Below, one piece after another: positions 24,622 to 37,148 of a DNA stretch of 59,969 nucleotides. The notes beneath the pieces are model-generated. The model worked only from the letters and a program-made list of their open reading frames with translations, made no database searches and was not told the DNA's origin. The stretch lies in assembly GCA_944358535.1 (NCBI GenBank), contig CALVRH010000005.1, positions 1 through 59,969 of the forward strand, read 5' to 3'. Position 1 is the stretch's first letter, and every line of letters begins with the position of its first letter. The DNA comes from an uncultured Bacilli bacterium (GTDB lineage: Bacteria > Bacillota_I > Bacilli_A > RF39 > UBA660). The position numbers were made by a program, and so were the translations under genes.

Positions 24622-25212
24622 ATGGATAAAGATATTAAACCATATAAACAAAGAGGGGATACATGTGCGATTGCGTGTTTAATGATGGTTTTAGAATATT
24701 ATCAAATTATGGATAAGGCTAATTGGTATGATGAGAAAAGATTATATAAAGTATACGGTTCAAAATATATGGCTGGGACTCCGTTTTCAGCTTTAGCTTT
24801 TCATTTATCTAAAAATGGATTAGATACAACTATATATCATTCTGATATAAATCTTTTTAACAATAATAAAAAAATTCTTAGTGAAAATGATTTTAAATGT
24901 GCAATGGATGAATATAAAGTATATTTAGATAGGGCTATTTCAAAAGGAACGCATGCTATAAATGGGATTGATATAGATGCTAAATTATTGAAGGAACAAC
25001 TTAAAGAAGGTAAAACAATAATACTTGCGGGTGAACTTGCTAGTGTATATCATGCTATTTTAGTTTCTGGTTATGAAGATGATAAATTTATAGTTTGTGA
25101 TCCTTTATACAAGACGAAACAAATTAGGACAGCCGATGAACTTAACAAATTTATGGATACAAGTATTGGAAAATGGTTTATTGCGATTAGTGATAAAACT
25201 AAAGAAAAATAA
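24622..25212 (+). CDS. C39-like cysteine peptidase domain protein
   Basis: 196 residues, no signal peptide. The N-terminus has the C39-type pattern Gln10...Cys15 (DTCAIAC). His144 (VYHAILVSGY) and Asp160 (VCDPLY) complete the triad. Unlike the first gene of the window it is cytoplasmic. C39 domains usually cut leader peptides at a Gly-Gly site during bacteriocin export, but this one lacks an ABC transporter fusion and its role is open. It lies at the left edge of the accessory region. The start is set by GGAGAGGAATAG. Confidence 0.78.
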   Translation: MDKDIKPYKQRGDTCAIACLMMVLEYYQIMDKANWYDEKRLYKVYGSKYMAGTPFSALAFHLSKNGLDTTIYHSDINLFNNNKKILSENDFKCAMDEYKVYLDRAISKGTHAINGIDIDAKLLKEQLKEGKTIILAGELASVYHAILVSGYEDDKFIVCDPLYKTKQIRTADELNKFMDTSIGKWFIAISDKTKEK

Positions 25213-25771: not shown

Positions 25772-27214
25772 ATGAAAAATATTGTATTAGATGATTTGAT
25801 TAAAATATTGAAAGAGTATAATCCCGAAGAAATCGAAATTGTAAAAAGAGCTTATGACTACGCATGTGATTTACATCACGGACAATATAGACAAAGTGGG
25901 GAGCCTTATATTAGTCATCCTTTAAATGTAGCATATATATTATCTGAATTACATGCTGATAGGGATACTATTTGTGCTGGTTTGTTACATGATACATTAG
26001 AAGATACAAAAATTACAAAAGAGGATATTGCTCATGATTTTAATCAAAATATTGCTAATTTAGTTGATGGAGTTACTAAACTTGCTAAAATGAATTTTTC
26101 TTCAAAACAAGATCAAAATTATGCAAATACCAGAAAAATTATCACTGGTATAACTGAAGATGTGAGAATAATTATTATTAAGTTAGCTGATAGACTTCAT
26201 AATATGCGAACATTACAATTTAAATCTGAATTTAAGCAAAAGGAAAATGCAATAGAGACCATGGAAATATTTGTTCCACTTGCTTATTATATAGGGGCAT
26301 ATAGAATTAAGTCGGAACTAGAAGATTTATCACTACAATATCTGAAACCAGATATGTATAAAAGAATTTTAGAAAAGAAATTAAAGATAGAAGAAGATAG
26401 TGACGAGTGTTTAAGGGAAATGTTAGGTACAATTGAGAGCTTGTTAAATGATAAGAATATTCCTAATGAAATAAAGGTTAGAACTAAAAATATATATGGT
26501 ATATATAAAAGATTAAATGAAGGTCATAGACTTTCTGATATTCATGATTTATTAGCATTAAAAATTATGGTTGATGAGGTTGAAAATTGTTATAGAACTT
26601 TAGGAATTATACACTCAAAGTATCATCCGGTGAATAGTAAATTTAAAGATTATATATGTAATCCAAAGACAAATATGTATCAATCACTTCATACAACAGT
26701 TTTTGGCTTAGATGATAGATTAGTCCAAACACAAATTAGGACATTTAAAATGGATAAAATAGCTTCTTTTGGTTTAACTGCATATTGGGATGCGGAAAAG
26801 GGTAATGCCAGAAATATAATGCAGAAAGATTTAAAAGAAAAATTTCAATTTTTTCAGTCATTAACAGAAATTAATTCAATGTTTGGTGATAATCAGCAAT
26901 TTGTCAATCAAGTAAAAAATGAACTATTTTCTGACAAAGTGTATGTATATACTCCTAAAGGAGATATTATAGAACTTCCTAAAGGTTCAACGCCAATAGA
27001 TTTTGCTTATAAACTTAGTACTGATATTGGAAATACAATGGTTGGAGTTTTTGTCAATGATGAATATGAACCAATCGATTATATATTACAAAATAAAGAT
27101 AGAGTTAGAATCGTGACAGATGATTTATCGTTTGGGCCACGTGATGATTGGAAAGATAAAGCTCATACGAGTTATGCAAAAAAGAAAATAAAAGAGTTTA
27201 AAAAGGAGATGTAA
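25772..27214 (+). CDS. RelA/SpoT-like protein lacking the regulatory C-terminus
   Basis: 480 residues from the ATG at 25772; long Rel proteins have about 730. The HD hydrolase domain is complete (His49, HD pair His73-Asp74, Glu77-Asp78, later LADRLHNM). The synthetase domain keeps IHDLLALKI and FKDYICNPKTNMYQSLHT. The catalytic Glu of the E-x-Q-I-R-T motif is Gln319 (VQTQIRT), and the Arg of LLALR is Lys. A TGS domain (about 385-450, YVYTPKGDIIELPKGSTPIDFAYKL) ends the chain; the zinc-finger and ACT regions are absent. It may therefore hydrolyse rather than make (p)ppGpp, or act on another nucleotide. The next gene starts one base after its stop. Confidence 0.88.
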   Translation: MKNIVLDDLIKILKEYNPEEIEIVKRAYDYACDLHHGQYRQSGEPYISHPLNVAYILSELHADRDTICAGLLHDTLEDTKITKEDIAHDFNQNIANLVDGVTKLAKMNFSSKQDQNYANTRKIITGITEDVRIIIIKLADRLHNMRTLQFKSEFKQKENAIETMEIFVPLAYYIGAYRIKSELEDLSLQYLKPDMYKRILEKKLKIEEDSDECLREMLGTIESLLNDKNIPNEIKVRTKNIYGIYKRLNEGHRLSDIHDLLALKIMVDEVENCYRTLGIIHSKYHPVNSKFKDYICNPKTNMYQSLHTTVFGLDDRLVQTQIRTFKMDKIASFGLTAYWDAEKGNARNIMQKDLKEKFQFFQSLTEINSMFGDNQQFVNQVKNELFSDKVYVYTPKGDIIELPKGSTPIDFAYKLSTDIGNTMVGVFVNDEYEPIDYILQNKDRVRIVTDDLSFGPRDDWKDKAHTSYAKKKIKEFKKEM

Positions 27215-27215
27215 A

Positions 27216-28199
27216 ATGCAATTATTGGATGATTTATTTAAATTATATGATGTAAAAATATTTGAGTTTGTGAATCTTTCAGGTGGGTGGATAAATGATA
27301 AATATTTAATTACTGATAGCAACCGAAAACAATATGTCTTAAAGGAATTAAGTTTAAAAAAATTTCCTCAAAAATATTTTTCTATTCTTTGTGAAACGGT
27401 AAAACTGCAAAAAGAATTATATGATAATGATTTTTTGGTGCCAAATGTAATACCAAATAATAAAAATGAATTGATATCTAATTTTTCTAATGGGAAATAT
27501 TATTTTTTACAGGAATATATAAAAGGTATCAGTAAAAAAAATAATGAATTGTCTATTATTGAAATTAATGATATAGCATTTAATTTGGCTTTACTTCATA
27601 AATATCTAAAATCAAAATCTATCAAAAGTTTTAAATCACCTTTTTTATCTTATAAAAGTATTGAGGTTTTGAAAAAAGAGTTTGATGATAGAGTTAAACA
27701 AATTGCTTCAGACACGAGGAAAGAATATAAGAAAGAATTAGAATTGCATAGTAAAATAATTAACGATATTGAAAATTCAAATATTTTGAATAAAACTAAT
27801 TTACAACTTATACATGGAGACTTTACTCCTGACAATATAATATTAGATAATGGCCATGTTAAATCTTTTATAGATTTTGAACTTTGCAGAGTAAATACAA
27901 AACTTCAAGATATAGGGAGAATAATTTTATCTACATGTATGGAAAATAATACTTTAATTAAGAAGAAATTATTAAGTTTTATTAATGGATATTCAAAAGT
28001 ATATAATCTTGATGTCAAAATGATTTCCTTAGCAATCAAATTTGTTTGGATTAATGAAGTGAATATTTGGATACAAGAAAGATATTTTAGAAATTATAAT
28101 CCTCCAAAAGTAGAAAAATTTATATCTGAAATTCAATGGATTAGTAATAATTGGTTTAGTTTAGAAGATATAATTAAGGATGTGATATATAGTGGATAA
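27216..28199 (+). CDS. Small-molecule kinase of the APH / homoserine-kinase fold
   Basis: 327 residues. The phosphotransferase core is clear: catalytic loop HGDFTPDN (His200, Asp202, Asn207) and the metal-binding Asp220 in IDFE. The N-terminal lobe has the nucleotide-binding text QYVLKEL and a hinge-like YFLQEYIKG. Relatives phosphorylate sugars, homoserine, choline or aminoglycosides. The substrate here is not readable, and I see no reason to call it a resistance gene. It follows the RelA-like gene by one base and overlaps the next gene by eight, so it is part of the biosynthetic operon. Confidence 0.85.
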   Translation: MQLLDDLFKLYDVKIFEFVNLSGGWINDKYLITDSNRKQYVLKELSLKKFPQKYFSILCETVKLQKELYDNDFLVPNVIPNNKNELISNFSNGKYYFLQEYIKGISKKNNELSIIEINDIAFNLALLHKYLKSKSIKSFKSPFLSYKSIEVLKKEFDDRVKQIASDTRKEYKKELELHSKIINDIENSNILNKTNLQLIHGDFTPDNIILDNGHVKSFIDFELCRVNTKLQDIGRIILSTCMENNTLIKKKLLSFINGYSKVYNLDVKMISLAIKFVWINEVNIWIQERYFRNYNPPKVEKFISEIQWISNNWFSLEDIIKDVIYSG

Positions 28200-29880
28200 A
28201 ATAAATGTTAATTATGAAATTAATTTTATAATTAATAAAAATATAAATCAATTTAAAAAATATATTGAAAATGAATTTCAAAAAAATGAATTGAATTGTA
28301 TTAAATATTCAATTAATGCATCTGATAATAATTTTGTAAAGGTTTATGTAGAAAAGAAAGACATTGATTATATATTTAAATGTGATAATAAAGCGTTTAA
28401 TAATATAAATGATATTATTAAATATAAATATATTTTGCCTAAATTATATGAAAATAATCTGAATATTAATTCATATAAAAAAGATCTTGCAAAACTTGAA
28501 CATAAAAAATCTGATTTATGGAATTTAATATTAAAAAAATATAATAAAATTTTTAAAAAGAATTTTAAAGTAAATAATGGTTTAAATGATATTTATGAAT
28601 GGTTTACAGGTGCTGTTTTTTTTACAGATTATGAATGGGAGGAAATTTGTAATAATAAAATAAAAGATTTATTTGAAACCATGAAAAATAATAGTTATAT
28701 TTATTCTTTACCATTAGATAATGGAATTATTTTGAGAGGCTCTAGTATTTATTATTATTTTTCTACTGATGTTAGTAGATTTAAAAAGCCTAGTATTAAA
28801 GAAATCAAGCAATGGTTTGATAATGTTTCTGTTTATATAAAAAAAGTTTTACCAATTTTAAATAATTATCAAATAAAAAATAATTATGATAAGCGATTGC
28901 TATTAGCTTTAGTTGATAATATTAGAAATATTATATTAATTTTAACAAATTGTAAATTAATGAATTTGTCGATTAATGGTCAAGATTTTATATATCATTC
29001 TACTTGTAATAATAAAGAGATAAGTGTTTGCTTTGATTTAATAAATAACTATCAAGAAGTCTTGAAAACTATTTGTTTAGATGGAATTTGTTCAACAGAT
29101 GAAGTAGAAAATATAAAAACTATTTATAAAAGTACTTTAAATTTAATTGTAAATGTAAGTTCAATTATATTAAATATACAAGATGAATTTATTTTAGGTA
29201 AAAGTTTTAATCCTTTAAGAGAAATCGATAATTATTTTGAAAACTATATTGTGTGTAAATATATTGTTGATGAAAAGTTATTAAATGATGAAAAAGGTAA
29301 AAATATAAACTTAATCGGAATATTATATGGTGGGTTAGAATTGCCATTTATAATAGATAACATAATTCCTAATAAGGTTACAGTTAGCTTTTTATTTCAA
29401 AATCATGGTATGTATCTTGATAGACAACAGAAAGATAAAAATATAATTGTCATTAATTTAAAAGAATATGGGTTTCTTCATAAGGAAAACGATACTTATT
29501 TGATAGATGATAATATGATGAGTGGTGTAACAATGCAATTTGCTTATAATCAATTATACTTATATGGTATAAATAATATTAAGGGAATTTTTGTTGTTCG
29601 TCATCCTAATATAAATAGAATTGCACAGTTGGAATATTTTGATACGGCTTTAAATTTAAACTTGGTAGATAATTATATAGATGGCATGCTTACTGATACA
29701 CCATATACTAAAATTAAACGTGGAACCAACTATAATAGTATGTTTGTAAATGAGTTAAATATTTTTTCCATTATGACGGAAATTTTTCTGAAGGCATTAT
29801 ATTGTAATAATTCATTTATAAAAGACAGTCAAGTTGATATATTTTTGGGTTATTCGGAGGGTAAAAATGATAAAATATGA
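28192..29880 (+). CDS. Large protein with C-terminal phosphoribosyltransferase domain
   Basis: 562 residues from the GTG at 28192 (AAGGATGTGAT upstream); no ATG is near. Residues about 345-500 form a type I PRTase-like fold: ILYGGLELP as the pyrophosphate loop, and the PRPP motif YLIDDNMMSGVT (Asp439, Asp440, Thr447). The first 330 residues are helical and Asn/Lys/Ile-rich, with no family I recognise. PRTases join a base to ribose-5-phosphate, or with a free PRPP group make a ribosyl product. The N-terminal part may supply the acceptor. It overlaps both neighbours. Confidence 0.78.
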   Translation: MDKINVNYEINFIINKNINQFKKYIENEFQKNELNCIKYSINASDNNFVKVYVEKKDIDYIFKCDNKAFNNINDIIKYKYILPKLYENNLNINSYKKDLAKLEHKKSDLWNLILKKYNKIFKKNFKVNNGLNDIYEWFTGAVFFTDYEWEEICNNKIKDLFETMKNNSYIYSLPLDNGIILRGSSIYYYFSTDVSRFKKPSIKEIKQWFDNVSVYIKKVLPILNNYQIKNNYDKRLLLALVDNIRNIILILTNCKLMNLSINGQDFIYHSTCNNKEISVCFDLINNYQEVLKTICLDGICSTDEVENIKTIYKSTLNLIVNVSSIILNIQDEFILGKSFNPLREIDNYFENYIVCKYIVDEKLLNDEKGKNINLIGILYGGLELPFIIDNIIPNKVTVSFLFQNHGMYLDRQQKDKNIIVINLKEYGFLHKENDTYLIDDNMMSGVTMQFAYNQLYLYGINNIKGIFVVRHPNINRIAQLEYFDTALNLNLVDNYIDGMLTDTPYTKIKRGTNYNSMFVNELNIFSIMTEIFLKALYCNNSFIKDSQVDIFLGYSEGKNDKI

Positions 29881-30868
29881 TAATAAATATTATGAAAGAA
29901 TTATAAAAAGTTATAAATATGATAAAATCCAGCCATTTTTATGTATTAATGAATTTAATGCAGAAAAAAATTGGATATGTTCTTATAATTTAAATGATTT
30001 TATTAATGGTAATAATCGAAATGAAAAATGTCTAATAATAATGGGGATAGGAATTAATGGAGTTCCTCATTTGGGGACTGTTTCTCAAATATTAAAAGCA
30101 ATTTATTTGCAAAAATGTGGATTTAATGTTCAAATCATTTTAGGAGATCTTGACGTATACGGTGCTAGATCTACATCTTTAAATAAAATCAACGAATTAA
30201 TAAAGAGGTACAAAAAATTTATTATTTCTTTAGGGTTTGATGAGCAAAATGGTGAAATAAGAGATCAATTTCATCATCCTGAAATATTAAAAACATCATT
30301 TATTTTATCAAATGTTATTAGAGATAAAGACTTTGATGAAATTGAAGAAGAAATAAATGAATTATATAAAACGGAACGTGTATATGAGGGAATGGATTAT
30401 AATGTGAAACAAGCAATATCATTAATGTTTGCAGATTTTATTCATCCTGGTTTTATTGGTAAGTATAAACATGTTTTAATTATTAGTGGAATTGATGAAC
30501 ATGGGTATGTGTGGAAAGCTAATGAGATTAGAAAACGAATGAATATTGATATGACTATTAGCGGATTATATTCAAAAATGTTAAGAGGATTAAATGAATA
30601 TCCTAAAATGAGTAAGAGTATTTTAAAATCTAGTATAAATTTATCTATATCTAAAAGTTTATTAAAAAAAATAATACTTTCAGAAAAATATAATTATAAA
30701 GATGATACAGATTGTTTTGTTTATCAATTAATGATGAATGTTTCACTATATGATGAAGAATATTTAAAAAAAGTGAAAGTTGATTGTTTAAATAAAAGTC
30801 AAGAATGGGATAAAGCTGTTGATAATTATATAGAAGATTTATATAAACTATGTCGTTTATGGAGGTGA
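29867..30868 (+). CDS. Stand-alone class I aminoacyl-tRNA-synthetase-like enzyme, TrpRS/TyrRS type
   Basis: 333 residues from the ATG at 29867 (CGGAGGG upstream); an earlier in-frame start at 29834 lies inside the previous gene. It shows the class I signature as PHLGT (His68) and KMSKS as YPKMSKS (247-251), so amino acid activation is plausible. The chain resembles TrpRS in length and layout, but the text around both motifs is far from housekeeping TrpRS and I see no anticodon-binding module. Such paralogues often make aminoacyl-adenylates or aminoacylate small molecules. Here it lies between a PRTase and a CAT-fold gene. Confidence 0.78.
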   Translation: MIKYDNKYYERIIKSYKYDKIQPFLCINEFNAEKNWICSYNLNDFINGNNRNEKCLIIMGIGINGVPHLGTVSQILKAIYLQKCGFNVQIILGDLDVYGARSTSLNKINELIKRYKKFIISLGFDEQNGEIRDQFHHPEILKTSFILSNVIRDKDFDEIEEEINELYKTERVYEGMDYNVKQAISLMFADFIHPGFIGKYKHVLIISGIDEHGYVWKANEIRKRMNIDMTISGLYSKMLRGLNEYPKMSKSILKSSINLSISKSLLKKIILSEKYNYKDDTDCFVYQLMMNVSLYDEEYLKKVKVDCLNKSQEWDKAVDNYIEDLYKLCRLWR

Positions 30869-30871
30869 ATT

Positions 30872-31504
30872 ATGAAAATAAAAATTGATATTGATAAGTG
30901 GAAAAGAAAAAAACAGTATGCTTTTTTTTCTAATTTTACAAACCCTTATGCATCTGTAACTAGTATTTTAAATGTTGATAAAATAGTGAAAATTTCCAAA
31001 AAATATAAAATTTCATTTTATGGAATTATGTCTTATGTAGTTTTAAAAACGCTAAATGAAATAGATGAATTTAAATATGTTTTAGAAGATAATCATATAT
31101 ATAAATATGATCAAATAAATGTTTCTTTTTCTGTTTTAGATGATTCTAATTCAATTAATTTTAGTAGAACGGTTGAATATACCGACTTTAATAAATTTAT
31201 AGAATTATTTAATTACGCAAAAAAGGAAGCAGAAAATAATATTCAAATACAATATAAAAGAGATTTTAACAAATGTTATTTTACTTGTCTTCCATGGGTT
31301 AGATTTACTTCTGTTGATAATCCTATGAATTACGAAGTTATTGATAGTGTACCTAGAGTGTGCTGGGGAAAATATTTTATAGAAAGTGGCAACTATATGA
31401 TAGATTTATCTATTCAAATTAATCATGCTTTTCAAGATGGTTACCATTTAGGTCTGTTTTTTAATAAGCTACAGGAGAATATAAATTTATTTAATTATGA
31501 GTAA
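30872..31504 (+). CDS. Chloramphenicol-acetyltransferase-fold acyltransferase
   Basis: 210 residues, the length of CAT subunits. The catalytic motif is present as NHAFQDGYH (His185, Asp189, Gly190), matching H-x-x-x-D-G of CAT. The chain begins with the family pattern of an N-terminal (FFSNFTNPYASVTS) segment. Members are homotrimers that transfer acetyl or other acyl groups to a hydroxyl or amine. Because it sits inside a biosynthetic operon, I read it as a tailoring or condensing enzyme, not as chloramphenicol resistance. It overlaps the HAD gene by eight bases. Confidence 0.82.
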   Translation: MKIKIDIDKWKRKKQYAFFSNFTNPYASVTSILNVDKIVKISKKYKISFYGIMSYVVLKTLNEIDEFKYVLEDNHIYKYDQINVSFSVLDDSNSINFSRTVEYTDFNKFIELFNYAKKEAENNIQIQYKRDFNKCYFTCLPWVRFTSVDNPMNYEVIDSVPRVCWGKYFIESGNYMIDLSIQINHAFQDGYHLGLFFNKLQENINLFNYE

Positions 31505-32114
31505 ACCAAAGATTTTATGTATTGATTTAGATGATACTTTAGCATTAACAGCCAATACTATTTTAGAGTATGCAATTCATTTTGATAAAACTATATTAAA
31601 TAGAAGTGGGATTTTAAAAAAAATTGACACTTGTGGAGATTATTATTATTTTGCAAGAATGTTGGGATGGAATAGAGAACAATTAATAAATTTTTTTGAT
31701 ACATATTATATAGATTATTTACGAAAAATAAAAGTAAAATCAGATGCAGAGTTAATTATAAAGAAAATAAAAAGGCTTGGAATAAAAGTTTATATTGTAA
31801 CATCGAGACGTGAACGAGAGAATAATATAGTGAGAGAAATAACACGACAATGGTTAAAACAAAATAAAATTTTATATGATAAACTGTTTATAAATGTTAT
31901 TGATAAAAGTAAATTAATAGAACAAATAAAACCAACTTACTTTGTTGATGATTCATATCAAAATTGTTTGAATGTGTTGCAAACATTTGAAAAAACAAAA
32001 GTATTTTTGATTGAAACAGATTTTAATAAGAACATTCAAACTAAAAACATATTAAAAATTAAGGAATTAAAAGAACTGTATGAATTTATTAAAGGAGATG
32101 TAGAAAATGCATAA
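31497..32114 (+). CDS. HAD-family phosphatase, 5'-nucleotidase-like
   Basis: 205 residues. Motif I is CIDLDDTL (Asp10 and Asp12), motif II the Thr/Ser in VYIVTSRRE, a Lys is present after it, and motif IV is YFVDDS. The cap layout resembles the NT5C/5'(3')-nucleotidase group, which removes a phosphate from nucleotides. In this operon it may dephosphorylate the PRTase product or an intermediate, but this is inference. It overlaps the genes on both sides by eight bases. Confidence 0.85.
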   Translation: MSKPKILCIDLDDTLALTANTILEYAIHFDKTILNRSGILKKIDTCGDYYYFARMLGWNREQLINFFDTYYIDYLRKIKVKSDAELIIKKIKRLGIKVYIVTSRRERENNIVREITRQWLKQNKILYDKLFINVIDKSKLIEQIKPTYFVDDSYQNCLNVLQTFEKTKVFLIETDFNKNIQTKNILKIKELKELYEFIKGDVENA

Positions 32115-33042
32115 TTTCGTTATAGATAGTCATAGTCATATTGGCAAAGATATCTTTCATGGGGAATCGACTATTGATGGATATATTGAATTTGCTAAAA
32201 AAAGTCATATAGATGTTGGAATTATAATGGGGGTACCATCGCCTTGTACAGACTTGAGTAATCTTAATACTAGATTTATGTATTGGAAATTGAATGAAAC
32301 TAATATGGAATTTTATGGTAAAAAAAATCCTTTTATTGAAATAAATTATAAAATAAATGACTTGTTAAAAGAAAAAACAAGTGAAGATTTAAAATTATTG
32401 TTTGTACCAACATTTCATCCTATTTTAGATGAAATAGAAAAATTTGAAAAAATGATAACAGAAACTGATCCGGTAGCTATAAAAGTTCATGGGATTGGTA
32501 GTGGAGTTGGTCCAGATGATATTAATCATGATTATATTGAATTAATAAGAGCATATGATTTGCCAATTATAGTTCATACTGATTGTGATTTTGGACAAGG
32601 CAGTATATCTATGCAGTATGTTAGAAATATTAATAGAGCTTTTCTTTGGGCAAATTTTTTTGAAAAAAACAGAATAAAAGGAATATTAAATCATGGAGCT
32701 TCGTTGGATTTAGAAACTTTTAAAATTGTGAATAATTCAGATTATTTGAAAATAGCATTAGGACCAGATAAAGTTGCATGTATTGATAATAATAGATTAT
32801 TTTATGATTGTAATGGTGACTATAAAAACTATTTAATGTTTTTAAAAAAATATTTAGATATGTCAAAAATAGTATATGATGCTGATTATAATTGGAATAA
32901 AGTTGAAGGTCAGCTGGATGATTATGATTCTGTAGAAAGGGTAAAAGAAATTTTTGGTGATAACGAGGATTCTGAAAATATATTAGCAAATAATTTGTTG
33001 GATTTTAATCCAAAAATATTAAAGAAAATAAGGAGGAAATAA
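32107..33042 (+). CDS. Amidohydrolase-family (COG2159-like) enzyme
   Basis: 311 residues with a TIM-barrel look. Metal ligands can be seen: DSHSH (His9, His11), the Lys-containing strand AIKVHGIG, IIVHTD, ILNHGAS and YDADYNW. This is the amidohydrolase-2 pattern, which includes hydrolases and non-oxidative decarboxylases. A hydrolytic or ring-opening step on the operon product is plausible; the substrate is unknown. The gene overlaps the HAD gene and is followed after two bases by the membrane protein. Confidence 0.82.
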   Translation: MHNFVIDSHSHIGKDIFHGESTIDGYIEFAKKSHIDVGIIMGVPSPCTDLSNLNTRFMYWKLNETNMEFYGKKNPFIEINYKINDLLKEKTSEDLKLLFVPTFHPILDEIEKFEKMITETDPVAIKVHGIGSGVGPDDINHDYIELIRAYDLPIIVHTDCDFGQGSISMQYVRNINRAFLWANFFEKNRIKGILNHGASLDLETFKIVNNSDYLKIALGPDKVACIDNNRLFYDCNGDYKNYLMFLKKYLDMSKIVYDADYNWNKVEGQLDDYDSVERVKEIFGDNEDSENILANNLLDFNPKILKKIRRK

Positions 33043-33044
33043 TT

Positions 33045-33584
33045 ATGATTTATTATATCGCACAAGCTTTTGGCATATTGGGATTAATAGTTATGATTTA
33101 TAGTTTGTTTCAAAAAAATAAAAATAAAATGTTATGGTTTATTGTGTTAAACGGTTTATTTTTTGGATGTCAATATTTCTTATTACAAGCTTACTCTGGT
33201 ATGTTTTCAAACTTTTTTGGAATAATTAGAACATATATTTGTAAAGTAAAAGAACAAAATGAGAGCTTAAATAAATGGTATGTTTTTGCATTTTTCATGA
33301 TAGGATATATTGTTATTGGATTTATAACTTTTGATGGACACATTATAAGTTTATTACCTATTATAGCTGAATTGATATATGTTATAACTTTGTGGCAGAA
33401 ATCTGTTAAAAGGATAAGATATGGTACTTTATTAATGGTAATATTATGGTTAATTTATGATGTTGTGGTTAAAGCATATCCATCTATGATAACTGATTTA
33501 ATTGTAATGACATCTACAATGATAGCAATATGGGTGAATGATTTTAAAAGAAAAGGAATGAATAAAAATGAAAAATACGACTGA
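33045..33584 (+). CDS. YgjV-like membrane protein
   Basis: 179 residues, five or six hydrophobic helices. The text LGLIVMIYSLFQKNKNKML at the N-terminus resembles the Imp-YgjV family of inner-membrane proteins, whose role is unknown. A relation to PnuC-like or SWEET-like small transporters is possible from the layout but not shown. As the only membrane protein in this operon it is the candidate exporter or importer of the product. Its end overlaps the GNAT gene by 17 bases. Confidence 0.7.
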   Translation: MIYYIAQAFGILGLIVMIYSLFQKNKNKMLWFIVLNGLFFGCQYFLLQAYSGMFSNFFGIIRTYICKVKEQNESLNKWYVFAFFMIGYIVIGFITFDGHIISLLPIIAELIYVITLWQKSVKRIRYGTLLMVILWLIYDVVVKAYPSMITDLIVMTSTMIAIWVNDFKRKGMNKNEKYD

Positions 33585-34104
33585 TATTATTTCGAAAAGG
33601 TTGGTTTTGAGAAAAATAAAAGCTTGTGATTATAAAGCAATATATGAATGTTGGACCAGCGATTTTGAAGTTAGCAAGTATGTTACTTGGACTCCACATA
33701 AATCTATTGATGAAACAAAAAAGTTAGTAGATTTTTGGTTAAATGAATATAATCATGAATATACATATCGTTGGATTGTTGAAAGAAAAAATACGCACGA
33801 AGTTATAGGAATGATAGATGTGATTAATAAAAATTTACAATATATGACAGCTGAGGTAGGGTATTGTTATGGTTCTAAATATTGGGGGCATGGATATGCT
33901 AGTGAAGCATTAACTGAAGTAATTAATTATTTACATAATATTGGTTTTGTAACAGTTTATGCGCAGCATTTTGAATCAAATAAAGCTAGTGGTAAGGTAA
34001 TGCAAAATGCTGGGATGAAATATGAGGCTACTTTAAAGTCGCGGGTTATTAATAAATTGGGAAATCGTGAAGATGTTTGTGTATATTCATCAGTAAATTC
34101 GTAA
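33568..34104 (+). CDS. GNAT N-acetyltransferase, RimJ/RimL type
   Basis: 178 residues. The GNAT core is clear: TKRLVLR-like start (ISKRLVLRKI), VIGMIDV, the acetyl-CoA loop YWGHGYASEAL, and the closing FESNKASGKVMQNAGM. RimL-type enzymes acetylate protein N-termini or small amines, and several give self-protection against peptide-nucleotide antibiotics such as microcin C. Overlap with the membrane gene makes it the last gene of the operon; a self-resistance role is inference. No strong terminator follows, only an AT-rich hairpin. Confidence 0.88.
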   Translation: MKNTTDIISKRLVLRKIKACDYKAIYECWTSDFEVSKYVTWTPHKSIDETKKLVDFWLNEYNHEYTYRWIVERKNTHEVIGMIDVINKNLQYMTAEVGYCYGSKYWGHGYASEALTEVINYLHNIGFVTVYAQHFESNKASGKVMQNAGMKYEATLKSRVINKLGNREDVCVYSSVNS

Positions 34105-34153
34105 AATGTAATTAAATTTCAATTGAATTATATAAAAAATTGTAGTAAAAACT

Positions 34154-34181
34154 TTGACAATAATATAATATATGATATAAT
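34154..34181 (+). promoter_or_regulatory. Sigma-A promoter of the T-box-tyrS unit
   Basis: TTGACA (34154-34159), 16-bp spacer, TATAAT (34176-34181). Confidence 0.8.
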
Positions 34182-34187
34182 GGCTAT

Positions 34188-34410
34188 AAGTTATTTTAAA
34201 AAAACGATGATTAATGCAAAGTAGATTATATTATTTATATTTTAGAGAGTTTAAGTTTGGTGAAATTAAACATATAATATAATTGAATTACACATTATGA
34301 GTTTATTAGGTAGTTACTTTATAGCTATAAAGTGTATGATATTTATCATAAATTAAGGTGGTACCGCGATAATTCGTCCTTATGGAAATAGAGTTATCGC
34401 GTTTTTTTAT
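34188..34410 (+). promoter_or_regulatory. T-box riboswitch for tyrosine
   Basis: The diagnostic T-box (AAGGTGGTACCGCG..., 34355-34382) is followed by the terminator CGCGATAA...TTATCGCG plus seven T (34365-34408). The specifier is likely the tyrosine codon TAC at 34289-34291, in the context GAAT-TAC-A. Uncharged tRNA-Tyr would stabilise the antiterminator and switch on tyrS. It fills the 324-base gap before tyrS. Confidence 0.9.
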
Positions 34411-34428
34411 TTTAAAGGAGGAAAATTT

Positions 34429-35625
34429 ATGAATAAAAATGAACAAATTGATTTAATATTAAGAAGAACAGTAGAAGTTCACAATAAGGAAACTTTGTTA
34501 AAAAAATTGAATAGTGGTAAAAAATTAGTTGTTAAGTTTGGAGCAGATCCGTCAAAACCCGATTTGCATTTAGGACATACTGTTCCACTTAGAGCATTAA
34601 GAATTTTACAAGAGTTGGGTCATGAAATAGTCTTTGTTATAGGAGATTTTACTGCCATGATTGGTGATCCATCTGGAAAGTCAAAAACAAGGCCATCATT
34701 GAGCTTTGAAGAAACACGAAAAAATGGAGAAACTTATTTTAAACAAGTTTCAAAAATTTTGGATCCGAACAAAATTAAAATTGCTTATAATTCTGAGTGG
34801 CTTTCAAAAATGTCTTTTGAAGATGTTATTAAATTAACAAGCAAATATACAGTTGCAAGAATTCTTGAAAGAGATGATTTTAATAATAGATTTAAAAATA
34901 ATATTCCTATAGGTATTCACGAATTTTTATATCCATTGATGCAAGGCTATGATTCAGTAGCTTTAAATGCTGATATTGAAATTGGCGGAACAGATCAAAC
35001 ATTTAATTTGCTAGTTGGTAGAGAATTGCAAAGAGATTATGGCCAAACACCTCAAGATGTTATGTGTTTTCCATTATTAGTTGGTTTAGATGGAAAGGAA
35101 AAAATGAGCAAGTCATTAGGAAATTATATTGGTGTTGATGATAAGCCAGAGATTATGTATGAAAAGGCAATGAGAATTCCTGATGATGTATTATTAGATT
35201 ATTTTAAACTTACTACAGATTTGAATTTAGAAGATGTAAAAACAATTATAAAAAAAGATGTGGTAGAAGCTCATAGAGTGTATGCTAGAGAAATAATCAA
35301 AATGTATCATGGAGAAGAATTTATAAAACAAGCAGAGGAAAGATATAAAACTGTTGCCAAGGGAGGAATACCTAAAAATATTGAAGAAATAGAAATAGAT
35401 GGTTCTATCATAGATAAAGGAATTTTATTAACAGATTTATTAGTAGTTTCTAAAATTGTTTCATCTAAATCTGAGGGTAGAAGGATGATTCAACAAAATG
35501 GAATAAGTATAAATGGAAATAGAGAAAATAATTTGGAGAGAGTAATAACAATTGATGATTTTGAAAAAAATGGTTTAATTATACAAAAAGGGAAAAAGCA
35601 ATTTAAAAAAGTAGTTATAAAATAG
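34429..35625 (+). CDS. tyrS: Tyrosyl-tRNA synthetase
   Basis: 398 residues. It attaches tyrosine to tRNA-Tyr in the cytoplasm. Class I motifs are HLGHT (residues 47-51) and KMSKS in the stretch GKEKMSKSLGNYIG. The S4 RNA-binding domain lies at the C-terminus (SEGRRMIQQNGISING). The length and sequence are closer to the TyrZ-type bacterial enzyme than to the B. subtilis TyrS type. The T-box and promoter upstream control it alone. It lies between the biosynthetic operon and the amidase, so it may be the ordinary gene or a resistant copy. Confidence 0.94.
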   Translation: MNKNEQIDLILRRTVEVHNKETLLKKLNSGKKLVVKFGADPSKPDLHLGHTVPLRALRILQELGHEIVFVIGDFTAMIGDPSGKSKTRPSLSFEETRKNGETYFKQVSKILDPNKIKIAYNSEWLSKMSFEDVIKLTSKYTVARILERDDFNNRFKNNIPIGIHEFLYPLMQGYDSVALNADIEIGGTDQTFNLLVGRELQRDYGQTPQDVMCFPLLVGLDGKEKMSKSLGNYIGVDDKPEIMYEKAMRIPDDVLLDYFKLTTDLNLEDVKTIIKKDVVEAHRVYAREIIKMYHGEEFIKQAEERYKTVAKGGIPKNIEEIEIDGSIIDKGILLTDLLVVSKIVSSKSEGRRMIQQNGISINGNRENNLERVITIDDFEKNGLIIQKGKKQFKKVVIK

Positions 35626-35709
35626 TTGTTATAAAGATAATTTTAATTTTATTTGTGTTTTTACTAAGAAATACCATAATTTTTGCAAAGCCCTTTATTG
35701 TTTTATTTT

Positions 35710-35735
35710 AAAAAGGTGTTTATGCATCTTTTTTG
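35710..35735 (+). terminator. Terminator of tyrS
   Basis: AAAAAGGTG-TTTATG-CATCTTTTTT hairpin. Part of it belongs to the amidase-leader repeat. Confidence 0.6.
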
Positions 35736-35780
35736 TAACCTTATGCCTACTTTTACATATTTTAATGTAGAGGTGGTTTT

Positions 35781-37148
35781 GTGAATAATTTACAGGTAGT
35801 TGTAGACGCTGGTCATGGTGGTACGGATCCGGGTGCTGTAAGTAGTTCCGGGGTTAGAGAAAAAGACTTAACTTTAATGATTGCTCAATATATGTATGAG
35901 GAGTTTCAAAAAAGAGGGGTGCCGGTTACCATTGTTCGTTCAACTGATGAGACAGTTTCACCAACTGAGAGAGTAAATAGGATATTAGATGCTTATGGAG
36001 ATAATCCTAATGTGGTTATTATTTCTAATCATATTAATGCAGCTGGTTCAGCTACGCAGGGGGCAGAAGGAGCCGAGGTGATATATGCACTTAGGGATGA
36101 TAGTACACTTGCGTCTAATATTTTGACAGCTTTAGGTAATGCGGGTCAGAAGATGAGAAAATTTTATCAAAGAAGGCTTCCTAGTGATACTTCTAAGGAC
36201 TATTATTTCATTCATAGAAATACTGGAAGTAACACTCATCCAGTTATAGTTGAATACGGTTTTATTGATAATCCTGAGGATTTATCTAAAATACAAAATA
36301 ATTATAAAGAATATGTGGATGCGGTGGTTGATGCTGTAATAGCTACTGCGGAAGGTGAGAGTATACCTAGTTTACCGGAAAGCGGTAATTATTATGTCGT
36401 ACAAAATGGAGATAGCTTATGGAAGATTGCTAATAAATATGGAATTACAGTTGATGAGCTTAAAAGTTTGAATGGGCTATCTAGTAATAATTTAACGGTA
36501 GGGCAAATATTAGAAGTTCCTTCAAGTTCTAGTGATGTTTCTACATATACTGTGAAGGCTGGAGATAGTTTATGGAAAATAGCTAATATGTATGGACTTA
36601 CTGTGGCGGAGCTTAAAGATTTAAATGGTTTAACTAGTGATAATTTAAGTGTTGGTCAGGTTTTGAAGGTTAATAATTCATCTAATAATTCTAGTGGTAA
36701 TACATATACAGTAAAAAGTGGAGATAGCTTATGGAGTATTGCTAATAAATATGAAACAACAGTAAATACTTTAAAAAGTTTAAATAATTTAACTAGTGAT
36801 GTTTTGAATGTTGGTCAGGTGCTTTTGATTCCAAATGAGTCATCTAATGGTTCTTCTAATAATTCTTCTACATATACTGTGAAGGCTGGGGATAGTTTAT
36901 GGAATATCGCAAATAAATACGGAATTACAGTTGATGAACTTAAAAACTTAAATGGTTTAACGAGTAATATTTTAAATATTGGTCAAGTGTTAAAGGTACC
37001 TAGTGGGGGTAATACTTATACGGTAAAAAGCGGAGATAGTTTATGGAGTATTGCCAATAGATATGGAACAACGGTTGATACTTTAAAGAGTTTAAATGGA
37101 TTAACGAGTAATACTTTGATGATTGGTCAAGTTCTTAATTTACCATAA
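35781..37148 (+). CDS. N-acetylmuramoyl-L-alanine amidase with five LysM repeats
   Basis: 455 residues from the GTG at 35781 (AGAGGTGG upstream). An amidase-3 domain (about 3-190) shows the zinc residues in DAGHGGTDPG, the Glu in GVREKDL, SNHINA and IVEYGF. It is followed by five LysM modules starting near residues 210, 257, 311, 371 and 413 (each YTVK.GDSLW.IAN). The enzyme would cut the glycan-peptide bond of the wall. No signal peptide is present: the catalytic domain begins at once, as in CwlC-type enzymes that leave by lysis or another route. A degraded copy of its 5' end lies at 25.3 kb. Confidence 0.93.
   Translation: MNNLQVVVDAGHGGTDPGAVSSSGVREKDLTLMIAQYMYEEFQKRGVPVTIVRSTDETVSPTERVNRILDAYGDNPNVVIISNHINAAGSATQGAEGAEVIYALRDDSTLASNILTALGNAGQKMRKFYQRRLPSDTSKDYYFIHRNTGSNTHPVIVEYGFIDNPEDLSKIQNNYKEYVDAVVDAVIATAEGESIPSLPESGNYYVVQNGDSLWKIANKYGITVDELKSLNGLSSNNLTVGQILEVPSSSSDVSTYTVKAGDSLWKIANMYGLTVAELKDLNGLTSDNLSVGQVLKVNNSSNNSSGNTYTVKSGDSLWSIANKYETTVNTLKSLNNLTSDVLNVGQVLLIPNESSNGSSNNSSTYTVKAGDSLWNIANKYGITVDELKNLNGLTSNILNIGQVLKVPSGGNTYTVKSGDSLWSIANRYGTTVDTLKSLNGLTSNTLMIGQVLNLP

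Follow-up and report, generated by a model that had tools for sequence, protein, structure and literature searches.

This study deals with P0001, a predicted protein encoded at positions 29867–30868 of a 59,969-nucleotide stretch of DNA from an uncultured Bacilli bacterium, referred to here as the window (contig CALVRH010000005.1 of assembly GCA_944358535.1; all window features given below lie on the forward strand). By its sequence, P0001 is a paralog of the class Ic aminoacyl-tRNA synthetases (aaRSs) of the tryptophanyl/tyrosyl family (TrpRS/TyrRS) in which both ATP-binding signatures are kept. Its gene belongs to a compact operon that is best described as a horizontally acquired, sporadic module, and the chances seem even that P0001 serves there in a mobile biosynthetic module, where it would activate an amino acid and pass the aminoacyl group to a small molecule. 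The recruitment of aaRS paralogs for small-molecule synthesis is already known (PMC12945691; PMC6331615; PMC2922099; PMC9437257); the set of partners that accompanies P0001 is fresh. Among the titles and abstracts of the open-access literature (subscription journals and preprints lying outside this scope), no TrpRS-like protein paired with a phosphoribosyltransferase was found.

The open reading frame of P0001 begins with ATG and encodes 333 amino acids without an internal stop; its assignment is based on Pfam, NCBIfam, a tree and a structural model. The match to Pfam tRNA-synt_1b (48.2 bits against a gathering cut-off of 21.1, E 1.2e-12) is too strong to be due to chance. The two motifs reported in an earlier note on this DNA were both located: the HIGH-type motif H68-L-G-T71 at 30068–30079, and KMSKS (residues 247–251) at 30605–30619, the latter kept in 11/11 members of the family formed by P0001 and its relatives. 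The distance from housekeeping TrpRS and TyrRS that the same note had pointed out is also evident. The top NCBIfam families are TrpRS models, mainly of the archaeal type, and all of them score far under their cut-offs (archaeal-type TrpRS, 61.4 against 451; trpS, 38.4 against 176.75), as do the TyrRS models (36.7 against 220, and 18.1 against 113.8). P0001 is only 21% identical to the TrpRS of its own genome and, in a tree of 41 proteins, its family forms a clade apart from TrpRS and TyrRS (support 100/99), with a stem of 2.13 changes per site. The GxDQ motif, present in all five TrpRS aligned, is absent from P0001, which has GIDEH at that position (30488–30502), with E211 invariant in 11/11 family members; the motif has become GxDE in P0001 and in its ortholog of genome G257, and GxEE in nine further paralogs described below. 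The genome that carries the window (1.33 Mb, 90.5% complete) contains four tRNA-synt_1b genes which, named by the tree, are the TyrRS of the window, a second TyrRS on contig C6, a TrpRS on contig C18, and P0001. The description of P0001 as an orphan is thus borne out: the genome has a TrpRS besides P0001, and had P0001 been its only one, the proposal would by the terms of the earlier note have been refuted.

The AlphaFold2 model of P0001, built from 11 sequences, has a mean predicted local distance difference test (pLDDT) of 75.5 and a predicted template-modelling score (pTM) of 0.79. Foldseek ranks the TrpRS of A. pernix first (E 2.6e-14), and VIA-align places eukaryotic TrpRS at Z ~28 over the full model, followed by A. 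fulgidus TyrRS at Z 24.7. Residues 1–333 align with residues 93–446 of human TrpRS (Z 28.2), and TrpRS of both eukaryotes and archaea are matched over the full length. An hhalign comparison with TyrRS aligned poorly in the middle and was not used. The C-terminal helices of the model align with TrpRS, and 82 residues follow KMSKS versus 131 in the TrpRS of the same genome. The suggestion that P0001 has no clear anticodon domain is therefore borne out only in part: going by the model, the helical C-terminus seems to be kept in a shorter form. Regarding the amino-acid pocket, D190 (30434–30436), invariant in 11/11 family members, falls on the AAD-motif aspartate when aligned with A. pernix TrpRS and with a set of bacterial TrpRS. 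The equivalent position in bacterial TrpRS and TyrRS presumably contacts the polar group of the side chain, which makes an aromatic substrate able to donate a hydrogen bond a reasonable guess, though nothing firmer. Eukaryotic TrpRS presumably bind the indole through a Tyr and a Gln; the matching positions of P0001 are aliphatic by eye, and the comparison is uninformative since A. pernix TrpRS seemingly lacks both residues as well.

In its genomic context, P0001 is part of a run of nine genes separated by +1, −8, −14, +3, −8, −8, +2, and −17 bases; the overlap with the phosphoribosyltransferase (PRTase) gene and the neighbouring CAT-fold gene, both mentioned in the earlier note, correspond to the 14-base overlap and the 3-base gap. 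The first gene encodes a short RSH protein of 480 amino acids with HD, RelA_SpoT, and TGS domains (25772–27214; Pfam/NCBIfam and alignment), followed by a small-molecule kinase of the APH/homoserine-kinase fold (27216–28199; Pfam APH, 2.7e-17; ThrB-like, 1.6e-15, under the cut-off) and the PRTase (28192–29880), a 562-amino acid protein in which the type I PRTase fold spans approximately residues 345–510 and the loop reads DDNMMSGVT. After P0001 come a CAT-fold acyltransferase (30872–31504; Pfam CAT, 9.9e-27; CatA-like families under the cut-off), a HAD-fold phosphatase that is weakly 5′-nucleotidase-like (31497–32114; all Pfam matches under the cut-off), a metal hydrolase of the amidohydrolase type that matches no Pfam family and was recognized by alignment (32107–33042), a YgjV-type membrane protein (33045–33584; Pfam Imp-YgjV, 1.3e-27), and a GNAT acetyltransferase (33568–34104). 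A full-length TyrRS, the second of the genome (34429–35625; TIGR00234, 377.7 bits; tree), lies 324 bases beyond the GNAT gene and has its own T-box leader (34198–34384; Rfam RF00230, 100.9 bits). The biosynthetic nature of the operon is suggested by its enzymes. By inspection, the kinase, the PRTase loop, CAT, HAD, and amidohydrolase appear to keep their catalytic motifs, which we take to be HGDxxxxN and DFE for the kinase, HxxxDG for the CAT fold, and the set HxH, K, H, H, D for the amidohydrolase. In the PRTase, D439, D440, G445, and T447 are invariant in 13/13 relatives, and the C-terminal part of its model (mf5122277a056, mean pLDDT 73.9) matches PyrR/HGPRT with Z ~10; the VIA list covers residues 132–527 of the model only, so no new fold is claimed for the N-terminal part. 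The GC content of the genes between 27216 and 33042 is 0.20–0.26 (lowest 0.204), versus 0.279 for the window. No PHROG family was found for P0001 or the PRTase. ARAGORN detected no tRNA gene in the operon; the window has only a tRNA-Arg and a tRNA-Thr, both outside it.

The same gene order is found in G257, divided between two contigs: C8 contains RSH, APH, PRTase, and the greater part of the TrpRS-like gene, and C46 contains the end of this gene followed by CAT, HAD, amidohydrolase, YgjV, GNAT, and a TyrRS. The end of C46 overlaps that of C57, which completes this TyrRS and continues with a T-box TyrRS 80% identical to that of the window; the C57 T-box reaches 90.5 bits, just below the gathering score of 93. 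The identities between both genomes are 75% for RSH, 51% for APH, 56% for PRTase, 69% for P0001, 61% for CAT, 52% for HAD, 67% for amidohydrolase, 73% for YgjV, and 68% for GNAT. G257 (L010, L119) was also observed to have two tandem TyrRS genes after the island and a third TyrRS elsewhere. Outside this pair, P0001 relatives are scarce. They were detected in 3/291 genomes of the family at E 1e-10 (its own, G257, and G094, which has the second type of island treated below), in two of the 44 genomes of the genus at E 1e-30 (its own and one with the second type) and, at E 1e-15, in the own genome only, both among 395 genomes of the class and among 392 of the phylum. The place of insertion is itself variable: between RSH and an amidase-like gene at 35781 (27215–35780 in the window), three genomes with the same flanks have three gene sets, namely that of the window, the second island type in L021, and an unrelated set in L072. 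A viral, phage or plasmid origin of P0001 was considered and set aside. No relatives appeared in 50,697 phage and 72,556 plasmid records; degenerate-pattern scans of IMG/VR, which were not exhaustive, gave none for P0001 or the PRTase, and the searches made in the plasmid collection gave none for the PRTase.

Scanning genome contigs for two conserved patterns yielded 10 loci: the G257 contig and nine that belong to the second island type. The paralogs of these nine loci are 394–426 amino acids long, with TAGT in the place of HIGH and KMSKS kept, and in 9/9 (L021 included) they are found together with a TrpRS and a TrpD-like protein, the gene of which lies ~2–7 kb from the paralog; this protein scores 127.7, versus a trpD cut-off of 199. 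An aaRS paralog accompanies a phosphoribosyltransferase in all 11 family loci, of type I in two (window and G257) and TrpD-like in nine. When the eight island proteins of L021 were used as queries, all of them were found in six of the nine loci, L021 itself being counted; L014 and L017 are without either HAD protein, and in L013 four of the eight were recovered, with a weak match for HAD (23%). The island TrpRS copies form one clade (99/97) which takes in a Patescibacteria genome and from which the housekeeping TrpRS of Bacilli are separate; the L014 copy falls outside it and that of L013 is a fragment placed beside it. In G094, G770, and G772, all incomplete, the island copy is the only TrpRS found, which indicates that it can serve translation. 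The tRNA-Trp gene beside the G094 island, read from its sequence, has G73, the bacterial identity. In the same genome (L015:7976–9370), a 464-amino acid protein resembling, by eye only, a decarboxylase dependent on pyridoxal phosphate precedes the TrpRS-like island.

A replacement of the paralog is observed in genome G092 (L096), whose island shares with the window PRTase (38% identity), CAT (43%), amidohydrolase (31%), and a GNAT that adjoins the PRTase (59%). Beside the PRTase there is no TrpRS-like gene; a class II protein of 344 amino acids related to asparaginyl-tRNA synthetase (AsnRS-like) and a full-length MetRS are found there. This AsnRS-like stand-in has no anticodon domain and is nearest to the asparagine synthetase A models, which favours a tRNA-free step. 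The second MetRS of G092, on C1, is of the type that constitutes the single MetRS of the five other genomes searched. A tRNA-Ile (GAT) gene, unusual in its T loop, was noticed inside the island (L096:1921–1995, reverse strand). Relatives of the amidohydrolase were found in 7/283 family genomes, six strong and a seventh (G152) at E 2.3e-7. Among the strong ones, the TrpRS-like gene is present in the window and G257, and the AsnRS-like gene in G092 and G066, the two AsnRS-like proteins being 64% identical; G260 and G089, where no aaRS paralog was seen, carry a GNAT-like gene together with a protein that shows weak similarity to 392–403-amino acid proteins of L013 and L019. At the G066 locus (L128), the first gene encodes an RSH that shows 71% identity to the window protein; RSH, amidohydrolase, and a GNAT domain are all that this island has in common with the window. 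Relatives of the PRTase were found in 14 of the 291 family genomes. The 11 others are longer, with a HAD-like N-terminus and different partners, and no aaRS paralog was seen in the stretch around them; two (L098 and L101) are accompanied by an APH kinase related to that of the window, and the one of G244 is interrupted by stops. As a further observation, the relatives at L097–L106 measure ~770–790 amino acids, and they are usually found near a helix-turn-helix-like gene, a gene for a small HAD-like protein, and one for a PfkB-SIS protein, sometimes with an APH kinase and a DHH phosphoesterase nearby.

From these data a sequence of steps can be proposed. P0001 would react an amino acid with ATP to form an aminoacyl-adenylate, the most likely substrate being Trp, Tyr or one with a similar side chain, because D190 is kept. 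The aminoacyl group would then pass to an amine or hydroxyl of a small molecule that the PRTase would build and the HAD phosphatase would trim, and the kinase, CAT, and GNAT would modify or mask the product. The transfer is more likely to be tRNA-free, in the manner of MshC and asparagine synthetase A, than tRNA-dependent. The product may be an aminoacyl-nucleoside-like synthetase inhibitor, with the full-length synthetase as the immunity determinant, this being the least certain step.

Several known systems are comparable with parts of this scheme. MshC, the mycothiol cysteine ligase, is likewise a class I paralog and uses ATP to couple an amino acid to the amine of a sugar (PMC9437257); unlike P0001 it derives from CysRS, and its family TIGR03447 is not among the seven NCBIfam families listed for P0001 at E 0.1. 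Asparagine synthetase A is an AspRS-like enzyme without a tRNA-binding domain that activates aspartate and hands it to ammonia (PMC9437257); it differs from P0001 in its class II fold, and an AsnRS-like relative takes the place of P0001 in L096 and L128. The MetRS paralog of predicted peptide-forming operons resembles P0001 in being a mobile class I paralog, defined by its neighbourhood, with GNAT genes around it and replaced by other ligases in parallel systems; unlike P0001, it shows a strict association with a cupin and a lysine N6-monooxygenase (PMC2922099), and the text consulted from this source contains neither "TrpRS" nor "phosphoribosyl". A likeness in setting is offered by SbzA (IleRS-like, from the SB-203208 cluster) and AcmF (AlaRS-like, from that of ascamycin, an aminoacyl nucleoside sulfamate), both cluster-encoded aminoacyl transferases of aaRS type (PMC12945691; PMC6331615). 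Like them, P0001 lies in a gene cluster, inferred to be biosynthetic from its enzymes, and is extra to the housekeeping enzyme. On the other hand, SbzA is a multi-domain class Ia protein and AcmF a class II protein, both using aminoacyl-tRNA, whereas P0001 belongs to class Ic, and the passages available from those accounts do not mention a set of PRTase, HAD, and amidohydrolase as that around P0001.

It is important to note that several observations weigh against a P0001 that activates an amino acid for a biosynthetic module. The Glu that replaces Gln in GxDQ could make adenylation weaker, and paralogs of the second island type have TAGT instead of HIGH. The TrpRS-like helices kept at the C-terminus of the model make tRNA binding possible. 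The nine-gene run has no carrier protein and no evident exporter, except perhaps YgjV, and neither PRTase nor CAT was found within the 14 kb read at G066. Finally, G775 and G777 have RSH and a T-box TyrRS side by side without an island, so the T-box TyrRS may be an older neighbour of RSH and not an immunity gene. The role outside translation that the earlier note had proposed is well supported by context, namely the tight operon, the synteny in G257, the pairing with a phosphoribosyltransferase in 9/9 second-type loci, and the AsnRS-like protein of two islands, and its mechanism also admits two other interpretations.

The first of these, an unlikely one that survives better than the rest, is that P0001 is a tRNA-dependent aminoacyl transferase similar to SbzA or AcmF, which would receive aminoacyl-tRNA from a canonical synthetase, perhaps the adjacent TyrRS. 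In this sense, the cluster-borne SbzA keeps both motifs and nevertheless uses Ile-tRNA (PMC6331615; PMC12945691), the C-terminal helices of P0001 align with TrpRS, and full-length synthetases are located inside the same islands. The short region past KMSKS (82 vs 131 residues) and the lack of a tRNA gene in the operon argue for a tRNA-free reaction, as does the AsnRS-like stand-in, whose closest models are those of asparagine synthetase A, a group described as devoid of a tRNA-binding domain (PMC9437257).

The second interpretation takes P0001 as a non-catalytic regulatory subunit that would bind an amino acid and control the overlapping PRTase, and we regard it as distinctly improbable. The HisRS paralog HisZ controls the HisG phosphoribosyltransferase, so that both HisZ and P0001 are aaRS paralogs tied to such an enzyme, and the 14-base gene overlap and the pairing in 11/11 family loci agree with this idea. 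HisZ, however, is of class II, and P0001 differs from it in keeping the ATP-binding motifs; KMSKS, needless for a regulator, is conserved in 11/11, and the second-type phosphoribosyltransferase belongs to a different family and is encoded ~2–7 kb away.

Still somewhat less probable is a spare or inhibitor-resistant TrpRS or TyrRS working in translation. Motifs and fold would suit it, antibiotic-resistant duplicate synthetases are known (PMC9437257), and TrpRS-A-like extra copies without an assigned role occur in bacteria and archaea (PMC5370408). TrpRS-A and TrpRS-A-like proteins are, as P0001, rare and laterally transferred relatives of archaeal/eukaryotic-type TrpRS found beside a normal TrpRS; TrpRS-A occurs, however, with a tRNA-Trp (A73) and ORF1 (PMC5370408), and the P0001 operon has no tRNA. 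The scores far under the TrpRS and TyrRS cut-offs, the long stem, the change of GxDQ to GxDE or GxEE, and a genome already provided with a TrpRS and two TyrRS, with no tRNA alongside P0001, all speak against this function. Least probable of all is an anti-phage or conflict system: a sporadic island at a site where relatives carry other islands would fit, but PADLOC gave no match for P0001, PRTase, CAT or amidohydrolase and only weak ones for HAD and the kinase, and the searches made in IMG/VR, phage, and plasmid collections gave no homolog.

Returning to the biosynthetic reading, the adjacent synthetases deserve some consideration. Duplicate synthetases that resist antibiotics are a known pattern of immunity copies (PMC9437257), a pattern fitted by the TyrRS of the window and G257, the TrpRS of the second type, and the extra MetRS of G092; by analogy, the synthetase beside the paralog is possibly an immunity copy. 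The TyrRS as a pure island gene is weakened by the RSH and T-box TyrRS pairs of G775 and G777, and partly strengthened by G257, where an extra TyrRS adjoins GNAT ahead of the T-box TyrRS. The window TyrRS might provide immunity or supply, or might be a long-standing neighbour of RSH. A broader and quite tentative proposal, which we would not expect to hold in full, is that mobile islands, mostly in small-genome Bacilli, use an aaRS paralog, class I TrpRS-like and class II AsnRS-like ones being interchangeable, and a phosphoribosyltransferase to build aminoacyl-nucleoside-like aaRS inhibitors, the matching full-length synthetase (TyrRS, TrpRS or MetRS) conferring immunity and, in several of them, a hydrolase-type RSH damping the stringent response provoked by the inhibitor.

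The RSH protein of the window keeps the HD motifs and has QTQIRT as synthetase motif, versus EIQIRT in three full-length RSH proteins compared. The Q for E in EIQIRT, with HD motifs kept, was noted in 14/14 short (~480 amino acids) RSH proteins examined (window, L009, L016, L020, L021, L072–L076, L078–L080, and L128), which for this reason look hydrolase-only. The genome of the window has three short copies and one RSH of 725 amino acids, and short RSH genes often adjoin islands. At L075, on C8 of this genome, another short RSH precedes three proteins that resemble a 334-amino acid protein of L013, radical SAM-like by eye, and a HxH-hydrolase-like gene; this locus is perhaps another peptide or metabolite cluster. 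Upstream of the RSH gene of the window, 24622–25212 encodes a 196-amino acid protein that is C39-peptidase-like by eye, and its 93% identical counterpart is found in L072 (4696–5619) inside a longer reading frame downstream of RSH.

If the biosynthetic reading is true, the TrpRS/TyrRS branch would join the few synthetase branches recruited for small-molecule ligation, and it would do so in bacteria with tiny genomes. The replacement of a class I paralog by a class II paralog in related gene sets would represent a rare natural experiment on the requirements of this step. Likewise, the full-length synthetase linked to the paralog would indicate beforehand which target is likely, making the mode of action of the product directly testable.

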